From NCBI RefSeq assembly GCF_000152985.1, contig NZ_CH672395.1, forward strand, positions 2,021,687-2,085,686: a DNA stretch of 64,000 bases, in the 5' to 3' direction. The stretch comes from Leeuwenhoekiella blandensis MED217. GTDB lineage: Bacteria; Bacteroidota; Bacteroidia; Flavobacteriales; Flavobacteriaceae. Shown one piece after another: positions 42,316 through 44,031 of this stretch. A model generated the notes under the pieces. That model saw nothing but the letters and a program-made list of their open reading frames with translations, made no database searches and was not told the origin of the DNA. Position 1 is the first letter of the stretch; every line of letters starts with the position of its first letter. The translations under genes were made by a program, and so were the position numbers.

Positions 42316-42897
42316 ATGAAATTAGTAATAATCAACTACGGAGCAGGAAATATTCAAAGTATCAAATTTGCTTTTGAACGTTTAGGAGTTCACGCGATAT
42401 TGTCTGATGATGCAGATGTAATCAAAGCAGCTGATAAAGTGATTTTTCCGGGTGTTGGAGAGGCGAGTAGTGCAATGGCAAAGCTGAAAGCCACCGGGTT
42501 GGATAAAGTCATTCCAACATTGAAGCAACCCGTTTTAGGGATCTGTTTGGGAATGCAATTGATGTGTAATCACTCAACTGAAGGAGACACCACCGGTTTA
42601 GGAATTTTTGATGTTGATGTAGTTAAATTTTCAAATAAAGTCAAAGTTCCACAAATCGGTTGGAACGAAATCGAAAGTTTAAAAACTCCCTTGTTTAAAG
42701 ACATTCCAGAGCATAGTTTTATGTATTTAGTGCACAGTTTCTACGCTCCAAAATGTGATGCAATGATCGCTTCTACAAATTATGAAGTAGATTATGCATC
42801 AGCTTTACAAAAGGATAACTTTTACGGTGTACAATTTCACCCAGAGAAAAGTGGTAAAGTTGGACAGGAAATTTTAAAAAATTTCTGTCAACTTTAG
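42316..42897 (+). CDS. hisH: Imidazole glycerol phosphate synthase, glutaminase subunit
   Basis: A 193-residue class I glutamine amidotransferase, supplying ammonia to HisF. The catalytic Cys is in LGICLGMQLMC and the His/Glu pair in YGVQFHPEKSGKVG. Normal length. After its stop the operon is interrupted by a REP-like hairpin and a GIY-YIG segment before hisA. Confidence 0.98.
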   Translation: MKLVIINYGAGNIQSIKFAFERLGVHAILSDDADVIKAADKVIFPGVGEASSAMAKLKATGLDKVIPTLKQPVLGICLGMQLMCNHSTEGDTTGLGIFDVDVVKFSNKVKVPQIGWNEIESLKTPLFKDIPEHSFMYLVHSFYAPKCDAMIASTNYEVDYASALQKDNFYGVQFHPEKSGKVGQEILKNFCQL

Positions 42898-42901
42898 CAC
42901 T

Positions 42902-42922
42902 TTTCTGAACTAGTTTCAGAAA
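42902..42922 (+). repeat. REP-like hairpin, left copy
   Basis: TTTCTGAA and TTCAGAAA form an 8-bp stem around CTAGT. The core CTGAACTAGTTTCAG differs at one base from the reverse complement of the right copy's core. Confidence 0.65.
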
Positions 42923-42930
42923 CTGCCACT

Positions 42931-44031
42931 ATGGAGTTCTTTTGTTACATATTATCTAATAAAAACCGTACGGTGCTTTATGTTGGGAAAACCAGAGACT
43001 TGCGCACACGATTACAACAACATAAGAAAGGTGTTGGAGCGGTTTTTACAAAAAAATATAATTGTTACGAGCTTTTATATTTTGAAACGTTTAAAACTGG
43101 CAGTGAAGCCTGGCAAAGGGAGCAGCAATTAAAGAGGTGGCATAAGGAATGGAAGTGGAATTTGATTAAAGATAAAAATCCAGACCTGAAAGAAATTAAA
43201 ATTGAAACTATAAAATTGGAAATAGATGCTAACAATATGAGATACAATGGATCGAAAGACCCTGAAACAAGTTCAGGGTTAAGAATAATCCCGGCAATAG
43301 ACATAATAGAAGGTAAGTGTGTGCGCCTTTCCAAAGGTGATTACAACACTAAAAAGATATATAATGAGAATCCGTTGGAGGTTGCGAAGGAGTTTGAAGC
43401 CCACGGAATTCAATATTTACATTTGGTTGATCTGGATGGGGCTAAAAGCAAACATATTGTCAATCATAAAGTCTTGGAGCAAATCGCTTCCCAGACCAGT
43501 CTAAAAATTGATTTTGGAGGCGGACTTAAAACTGACGATGATTTGCGTATTGCTTTTGAAAGTGGTGCCAATCAAATTACAGGCGGAAGCATCGCAGTTA
43601 AAGATCCTGAAACTTTTAAAAGTTGGTTGACAAAATTTGGCGCTAATAAAATCATTTTGGGCGCAGATGCTAAAGATGAAAAAGTCGCGGTGAGCGGCTG
43701 GCTTGAAGAGTCTAAAGAAGAATTGATCCCATTTATTCAAAGCTATCAAAAGGAAGGAGTTTCTTATGTGATTTGTACCGACATCAGTAAAGACGGGATG
43801 TTAGAAGGCCCTTCTTTTGATTTATATAGAAAAATTCTTGAAGATTGTCACCCTGAGCTTGTCGAAGGGGAAGTTGGCAATCTAAAACTCATCGCTTCTG
43901 GAGGAATTTCAACGTTTGACGAACTGCCCAAATTAGCTGAATTAGGTTGTGAAGGGACGATCATAGGTAAAGCGATTTATGAAGGTAGGATTTCAATGAA
44001 GCAGTTGGAGGGATTTATATTAAATAATTGA
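42931..44031 (+). CDS. hisA: GIY-YIG endonuclease domain fused in frame to HisA isomerase
   Basis: A 366-residue frame. Residues 1-95 are a YhbQ-like GIY-YIG domain ([19 protein letters not shown], catalytic Arg in LRTRLQQH, Glu in [15 protein letters not shown]). Residues 96-117 are a linker crossing a REP-like hairpin (KDPETSSG). Residues 118-366 are HisA ([58 protein letters not shown]), with both catalytic Asp regions intact. HisA isomerises ProFAR to PRFAR. A second extra segment, [10 protein letters not shown], sits in HisA at about residues 306-315 and is also repeat-derived. HisA could be made as part of the fusion or from an internal ATG at 43237 ([20 protein letters not shown]). Which is used cannot be decided here. 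Confidence 0.88.
43259..43279 (-). repeat. REP-like hairpin, right copy, within the fusion linker
   Basis: ACCCTGAA and TTCAGGGT form an 8-bp stem around ACAAG. It is translated as part of the linker before HisA and is inverted relative to the copy at 42902. Confidence 0.7.
43846..43872 (+). repeat. REP-like sequence inside the HisA coding region
   Basis: The sequence CACCCTGAGCTTGTCGAAGG, encoding HPELVEG, belongs to a widespread REP-like class often translated as HPELVEG or HPELVSG. It shares the CCCTGA..CTTGT core with the right flank hairpin's reverse complement. It adds about ten residues between helix ILED and strand NLKLIASGG of HisA. Confidence 0.65.

Follow-up and report, generated by a model that had tools for sequence, protein, structure and literature searches.

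Between hisH and hisA of Leeuwenhoekiella blandensis MED217 lies a segment that encodes a small GIY-YIG nuclease domain and carries a short palindrome on each side. It belongs to a 64,000-nucleotide stretch of contig NZ_CH672395.1 (assembly GCF_000152985.1, positions 2,021,687 to 2,085,686 of the forward strand), the whole of which we call the window. An initial annotation, made from the letters of the window, had noticed around this segment two inverted hairpins resembling repetitive extragenic palindromes (REPs), with 8-bp stems and 5-nucleotide loops, and had read the arrangement as a minimal mobile element. Folding confirmed both hairpins (left, −5.5 kcal/mol, z −3.3; right, −7.7 kcal/mol, z −3.9; Table 1), and our own reading agrees with the annotation that their cores differ at one of 15 bases after reverse complementing. 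Chance hairpins were rejected as an explanation, as none of 2,000 single-base shuffles of both 300-nucleotide flanks gave a pair with 5-bp stems and 5-nucleotide loops matching at 14 or more of 15 positions.

The nuclease domain is real (PF01541, E 3.8e-17, residues 3-76), but it does not form the separate small gene that had been annotated: its open reading frame (ORF) continues in one frame through the right hairpin into HisA, spanning 42931-44031 and encoding 366 amino acids. The HisA domain is complete (PF00977, residues 118-354), and GIY-YIG and His_biosynth are the only Pfam domains in the ORF. The right hairpin encodes DPETSSGL, part of the linker between the two, and residue 117 of the fusion (TTA) occupies the position of the hisA ATG in relatives. 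Judging from the sequence, HisA with a 15-residue leader, started at the ATG at 43237, could be a further product.

The hairpins recall the CGTC REP superfamily, which passages of the survey by Di Nocera et al. (2013, PMC3733652) describe as having a CGTC or TGTC tag at one end, an 8-9 bp stem starting with AT, a 4-5 nucleotide loop and a CCA-like tail, and as forming dimers. According to the same passages, CGTC REPs are known from five phyla, are equated with dRS3 of Neisseria and RPE-4 and RPE-6 of Rickettsia, and have no dedicated transposase, the agent of their spreading being left open. The window hairpins fit this superfamily in stem and loop length; the outer GTC tag is missing on both sides, and the stems start, from outside, with TT and AC. 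Exact copies of the right hairpin core occur elsewhere in the genome, and the ACAAG-loop core CTKMRACAAGYTCAG has 37 genome matches with at most one mismatch, compared with 3 for the reversed control, a modest number. With its outer tags, its stop codon and the hisA start codon gone, the window copy would have become the present nuclease-HisA ORF. It is one member, degenerate and fused to hisA, of a general association, and alone it is insufficient to reveal the rule.

We read the surroundings of related nuclease genes at 80 loci from named genomes, picked by protein similarity alone as the best 80 of 547 confirmed. Inverted hairpin pairs scoring at least 12 were present at 27 of these loci, compared with 5 of 791 offset controls. 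When all 64 trinucleotides were scanned as possible tags in an unbiased manner, GTC ranked first (99 of 160 flank sides), and the runners-up TCA (89) and TGT (60) are overlapping frames of GTC. A hairpin with its GTC tag pointing outward was found in the left flank at 46 loci, in the right flank at 53 and in both at 40, whereas both sides were so occupied in only 3 of 1,189 offset windows (0.25%). The same held for 4 of 403 control ORFs of the same loci (Fisher 1.9e-31 against 40/80) and for 2 of 118 small ORFs. Collapsing the set at 80% identity left 70 loci, 33 with outward tags on both sides and 51 with an outward tag on any side. In the genus of the source genome, where we read the best 30 of 39 GIY-YIG matches, grouped subfamilies by reading and counted orthologues apart, 10 of 13 window-like loci had an outward GTC hairpin compared with 0 of 17 from other GIY-YIG subfamilies. 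Other small GIY-YIG genes within hairpins, which the initial annotation had named as a check, thus proved frequent in this subfamily across genomes. The association between the nuclease and GTC hairpins is almost certainly general across phyla. Neighbouring genes were co-directional at 47 of 69 loci and 168 of 315 controls (p 0.03), which is weaker than we had hoped. Two loci from Bacillota (L062 and L080) and one from an unplaced bacterium (L105) have no GTC tag and carry a different palindrome (ATGACA..TGTCAT) on one or both sides.

Among the flanking units of the 70 collapsed loci, which were selected for GTC, T or C precedes GTC in 85 of 95, the stem starts with AT in 81 and the loop is 5 or 4 nucleotides long in 92; the tail is CCA in 27, CTC in 21 and CTT in 12. 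By these sequence features the flanking repeats of the wider set fit the CGTC REP superfamily, with the tail agreeing in part. A collection of plasmids yielded 33 matching records, of which we fetched 12, chosen for variety. Eight were bracketed on both sides: those of Azospirillum lipoferum (where the unit lies between sufB and sufC), Sinorhizobium meliloti, Novosphingobium aromaticivorans, Rhizobium sp. CIAT894, Sphingobium, Shinella, Neisseria gonorrhoeae and Aeromonas caviae. In N. gonorrhoeae (L244) the GIY-YIG gene sits inside an array of CGTC units, which suggests that it may encode the enzyme for the arrays equated with dRS3.

Table 1. Features at the hisH-hisA locus (positions within the window).
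Feature	Position	Strand	Basis or remark
hisH	42316-42897	+	ORF, TIGR01855, comparison with relatives; final codons lie within the snap-back stretch at the insertion junction
Inverted copy, 18 nt, 94% complementary to hisH 42845-42862	42889-42906	.	Repeat pair and junction comparison
Left REP-like hairpin, 8-bp stem, 5-nt loop, without outer GTC tag	42902-42922	.	
GIY-YIG nuclease domain, UPF0213/Slx1-like	42931-43206	+	PF01541, alignments, AlphaFold2 model
Linker from nuclease domain to right hairpin; holds second in-frame ATG at 43237	43207-43258	+	
Right REP-like hairpin, 8-bp stem, 5-nt loop, translated in the fusion linker (PETSSG), without outer GAC tag	43259-43279	.	
hisA lacking a start codon of its own, continuous in frame with the nuclease ORF	43282-44031	+	PF00977; TIGR00007 above cut-off
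REP-like unit within hisA, peptide HPELVEG	43847-43870	.	

To compare palindromes with nucleases, we sorted the flanking hairpins into type A (CTGAA-5-TTCAG), type B (4-nucleotide loop), type C (GCGGG-5-CCCGC) and type D (the rest). Eight loci with tied types were excluded from the tree and neighbour tests, and four type D loci from the neighbour test too; two source-genome labels in the tree (A for the window and B for L001) were assigned by eye. A GIY-YIG tree with 56 labelled rows required 12 type changes compared with 24.9 after shuffling, and none of 200 shuffles was as low, although this was a quick tree from few columns, in which 43 of the 87 inner branches were open and the window row sat on a long branch. 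The nearest protein of a different phylum had the same type in 34 of 48 cases (18.4 expected), a value that within-phylum label shuffling never reached in 5,000 trials; loci without a named phylum (6 of 48) were pooled as one group. Palindrome type thus tracks the nuclease tree across phyla. Genomes also tend to carry dispersed copies of the palindrome type that brackets their own nuclease. The type C pattern occurs in 8 of the 39 genomes behind the loci, including 7 of 7 with a C-flanked gene, and types A and B associate less cleanly. With at least four copies per genome required, type C shows a firm match (p 1.5e-5), type A a moderate one (0.004) and type B a marginal one (0.04); a test counting any copy takes in the locus's own flanks. 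The genome of L047 (G040) is very rich in REPs, with 287 matches to the B-type and 172 to the C-type pattern, and many of its B-type units form inverted pairs 45 bp apart.

Comparison of filled with empty sites was possible for three units: the hisH-hisA unit, a unit between bioD and bioA, and locus L005. We searched for HisH in 40 genomes (the source and 39 relatives) and read the junction where the hisA start could be placed, which left 6 of 30 loci unreadable. The initial annotation had proposed a search for hisH-hisA junctions lacking the segment, and such a junction exists in the nearest relative, G011 (HisH 93% identical), where hisH and hisA overlap at ATGA with nothing in between. None of the 12 other genomes of the genus has a GIY-YIG gene there, as judged from gap ORFs of at least 50 amino acids and from protein matches at the hisH places. 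The segment is thus an insertion, and the empty junction in G011 led us to reject a conserved ancestral hisH-GIY-hisA layout. The mobile element of the initial annotation therefore stands as far as insertion is concerned, but movement by the nuclease would be a further step, as no transposition event was observed.

At the left junction, an 18-nucleotide inverted copy of hisH follows the end of hisH; G011 lacks it at its empty site. This suggests that fold-back synthesis accompanied the insertion, a 3' end having folded back and been extended. The junction as a whole has the look of a hot spot for insertions: in five genomes of the genus (G001, G002, G004, G005 and G006) other ORFs occupy it, of which the two tested (G004 and G005) are 23S_rRNA_IVP proteins, and G018, from another genus, has a palindrome dimer. 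The REP-like unit inside hisA is polymorphic as well. In a protein alignment the window hisA is 9 codons longer than that of G011 at this unit, with the frame kept, and peptides like HPELVEG occur in HisA of several same-genus genomes, though not in G011, G001 or G009; its stem is imperfect and folds no better than shuffles (z 0.2). Another REP-like unit lies in frame within coding sequence at positions 72-101 of L003, in the bioF frame.

The bioD-bioA unit (L003 in the source genome) is present in 5 of 13 genomes of the genus; the other 8 have no GIY-YIG gene there, and 5 of these have 44-61 nucleotides between the aligned flanks. Conservation in the five-genome set is higher in the palindromes than in the coding sequence: invariant columns make up 27 of 28 and 25 of 26 in the two REPs and 185 of 282 in the coding part, compared with 2 of 20 and 4 of 20 just outside the REPs and 6 of 59 and 3 of 22 in the inner spacers. 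Nonsynonymous and synonymous divergence (dN/dS) of the nuclease was 0.022/0.611, 0.048/0.605 and 0.055/1.095 among three relatives and 0.015/0.049 for the closest pair, several saturated or undefined dS values being left out. In these orthologues, sequence comparison shows constraint on both palindromes and protein. At L005, the match to G011 ends at the left GTC tag, of which GT is shared, and resumes 7 nucleotides past the right GAC; the intervening length is 576 nucleotides, compared with 22 in G011 and 18 in G006. G010 has dimers of the same palindrome family at this place and no nuclease match.

The source genome has 13 places with a PF01541 match. Five are small units away from tRNA genes, four of which are bracketed by palindromes by our reading (L002, L003, L004, which is the window unit, and L005); the fifth, L001, has palindromes on at least one side. 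ACAAG-loop hairpins stand on both sides at L002 and L003, and L001 and L005 have other palindromes. The initial annotation had held that its reading would be refuted if GIY-YIG genes elsewhere in the genome lacked such hairpins, and the outcome is mixed: of the 12 other places, 2 have ACAAG-loop hairpins, 2 have other palindromes and 8 have none. The small units sit between biosynthetic genes, as in hisH-hisA, trpB-trpA (L001) and bioD-bioA. The genome holds several divergent units with different palindrome types. A second GIY-YIG subfamily adjoins genes for tRNA-Ala-GGC, tRNA-Arg-TCG and tRNA-Phe-GAA (L006 at 4242763, L007-L009 at 3602635-3603489 and L013 at 775013). At these loci, partial tRNA copies are broken up by other palindromes, and at tRNA-Arg there are three tandem 327-bp copies, one with an internal stop; this subfamily may be a tRNA-targeting relative. 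Tandem palindrome arrays with regular steps of 281 and 306 bp were also seen (G000, 3200607-3201183; G003 C2, 614715-615357).

What kind of nuclease this is can be judged from its nearest relatives. The AlphaFold2 model of the window domain has a mean pLDDT of 93.1. By sequence, the nearest solved structures are 1zg2 (UPF0213 protein BH0048, E 7e-8), then 1ywl, UvrC (1yd6) and SLX1 (7cq2, E 0.006). In a Foldseek search 1zg2 again came first (E 1.1e-4, root-mean-square deviation (rmsd) 7.4) and was the sole match below 0.001, followed by SLX1 chains with TM scores by query of 0.53-0.63 (6seh, E 0.014, 0.63, rmsd 2.2) and the At-HIGLE catalytic domain, and then by UvrC. The homing-type nuclease of the initial annotation did not survive this comparison: I-TevI lies far behind at rank 18 (E 0.35), and a homing endonuclease was rejected for this poor fold match and for the absence of any Pfam domain besides HisA that could serve as an extra DNA-binding domain. 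Passages of Dunin-Horkawicz et al. (2006, PMC1564403) predict that the UPF0213/Slx1-like family acts in DNA repair, and mention an HsdR protein that recently gained a GIY-YIG domain by insertion, as well as a fusion to a TrmH-like protein. Slx1 cuts branched DNA (the same passages; PDB titles), an activity that by analogy would fit an enzyme acting on extruded hairpins.

What can be read from sequence, namely the bracketing, the tag with its orientation, the agreement between type and clade and the insertion polymorphism, leads us to propose that the small GIY-YIG nuclease is probably the cognate enzyme that moves CGTC REPs, gene and REPs together making up a unit like the REPtrons described below. 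Such a unit would consist of a stand-alone UPF0213/Slx1-type gene between two inverted CGTC REPs with their GTC tags outward. We infer that the hairpin with its tag, whether extruded or present in single-stranded DNA, is most likely what the nuclease recognizes, that it cuts one strand at the GTC tag, and that the unit, as well as non-autonomous REP monomers and dimers, would then insert at new sites.

The chief alternative is a host role for the nuclease: as a domesticated enzyme it would process or restrain CGTC REPs by cutting extruded hairpins, resolving stalled forks and limiting expansion, the adjacent REPs being retained cognate sites and not the ends of a unit. Five related genomes share one unit with near-invariant REPs and dN below dS, and the predicted fold is close to UPF0213 and to chains of SLX1, a branched-DNA nuclease, which would suit such an enzyme. 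We nevertheless consider it unlikely, given the insertion polymorphism at his, bio and L005, where the break falls at the left tag and within 7 nucleotides of the right one, and the several divergent units with differing palindrome types in one genome.

Less probable still is that the gene is a passenger, REP-rich intergenic spots having gathered REPs and small genes while the REPs are moved by some other enzyme, for instance a transposase of the RAYT type. The apparent hot spot between hisH and hisA, with its other ORFs and the G018 dimer, would suit a passenger, as would the presence of Y1 genes in 24 of the 39 genomes behind the loci; but the source genome and the remaining 15 have no PF01797 (Y1) match, and RAYT-type Y1 loci from the same genomes had outward GTC hairpins on both sides in 0 of 30 cases and on any side in 2, with GTAG hairpins on both sides in 1 of 30, some of the 30 being cut by contig ends so that flanks were shorter or placed by guess. 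A RAYT as the mover was rejected on these grounds. A passenger would not follow palindrome type across phyla, nor would the bracketing be missing from other GIY-YIG subfamilies (0 of 17) and so rare among control ORFs of the same loci (4 of 403). Hairpin RNAs can influence message stability, and the units named here are found inside operons or flanked by biosynthetic genes of the same direction (his, trp, bio and suf), but a role of the hairpins in RNA, as terminators or stabilizers of the nuclease message and not as DNA sites, is very improbable because their inversion with outward tags gives the two sides different RNA sequences, their type tracks the protein across phyla and the right window hairpin is translated.

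Several observations weigh against a nuclease that moves CGTC REPs. A strict tag test was passed by only one of the five small non-tRNA units of the source genome (L003), and the window copy fails it. Among the 80 loci, inward tagged hairpins, though rarer than outward ones, occur on the left at 19, on the right at 23 and on both sides at 10, with at least one at 32, and 20 loci have no tagged hairpin in any orientation, for which one inspection found no rule. Four of the 12 fetched plasmid hits (Planktothrix, Rhizobium tumorigenes, Spirosoma and Photobacterium) are unbracketed. The controls contain coding sequence and may therefore understate intergenic REP density. The match of dispersed copies at the four-copy threshold is weak for type B, and some genomes are rich in REPs whose type is not the one around the sampled nuclease. 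The occurrence of the bioD-bioA unit at one site in 5 of 13 genomes fits slow vertical inheritance. Neither L005 nor hisH-hisA showed a target-site duplication, the target sequence differing around both junctions; even at L005, the cleanest junction, the right break lies 7 nucleotides beyond the tag and about 20 nucleotides of target differ.

In a wider reading, stand-alone UPF0213/Slx1-like nucleases may well, on somewhat better than even chances, mobilize CGTC REPs throughout bacteria as a new class of minimal transposable element, with tagged hairpin ends and a structure-specific nuclease in place of a transposase. This would account alike for the dRS3 arrays of Neisseria, the REPs of alphaproteobacteria and the palindromes of Bacteroidota. 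REP peptides translated in frame, and GIY-YIG fusions like the nuclease-HisA ORF, could be explained in the same way, and a function would be suggested for many of the small GIY-YIG proteins hitherto predicted, in the passages of PMC1564403, to be repair proteins. A nuclease matched to CGTC REPs by type and orientation makes the question of how REPs spread testable with one protein and short oligonucleotides. Our search of the open-access literature, which covered the longer lists of results in part and had preprints and most subscription journals outside its scope, found no earlier report of a link between GIY-YIG proteins and CGTC REPs, an absence that is thereby unproven; PMC9465073, as far as seen, has both 'GIY-YIG' and 'repetitive extragenic palindrom' merely as genes listed in a table or text.

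With GIY-YIG homing endonucleases of the I-TevI type the unit shares the catalytic fold and a selfish setting, but Pfam finds no DNA-binding domain here and the unit either stands between genes or is fused to one; no sign of an intron or intein home was seen, no intron search having been made. The UPF0213 and prokaryotic Slx1-like proteins have, in the passages of PMC1564403, the same minimal domain of about 95 amino acids; 'palindrom' does not occur in the main text of that paper. Hosts of CGTC REPs named in the passages of PMC3733652 (A. lipoferum, S. meliloti, N. aromaticivorans and Neisseria) carry bracketed GIY-YIG genes here, whereas those passages do not contain the association with the nuclease, and the window's own two hairpins are tagless. 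The closest parallel in logic is the RAYT/REPtron, described in the same passages as a small gene within inverted tagged REPs together with many non-autonomous genomic copies. The GIY-YIG unit, bracketed at 40 of 80 loci, would work alike without belonging to that family: RAYTs are tyrosine transposases with GTAG REPs, whereas here an unrelated GIY-YIG nuclease is paired with a GTC tag, and we claim no homology between the two.
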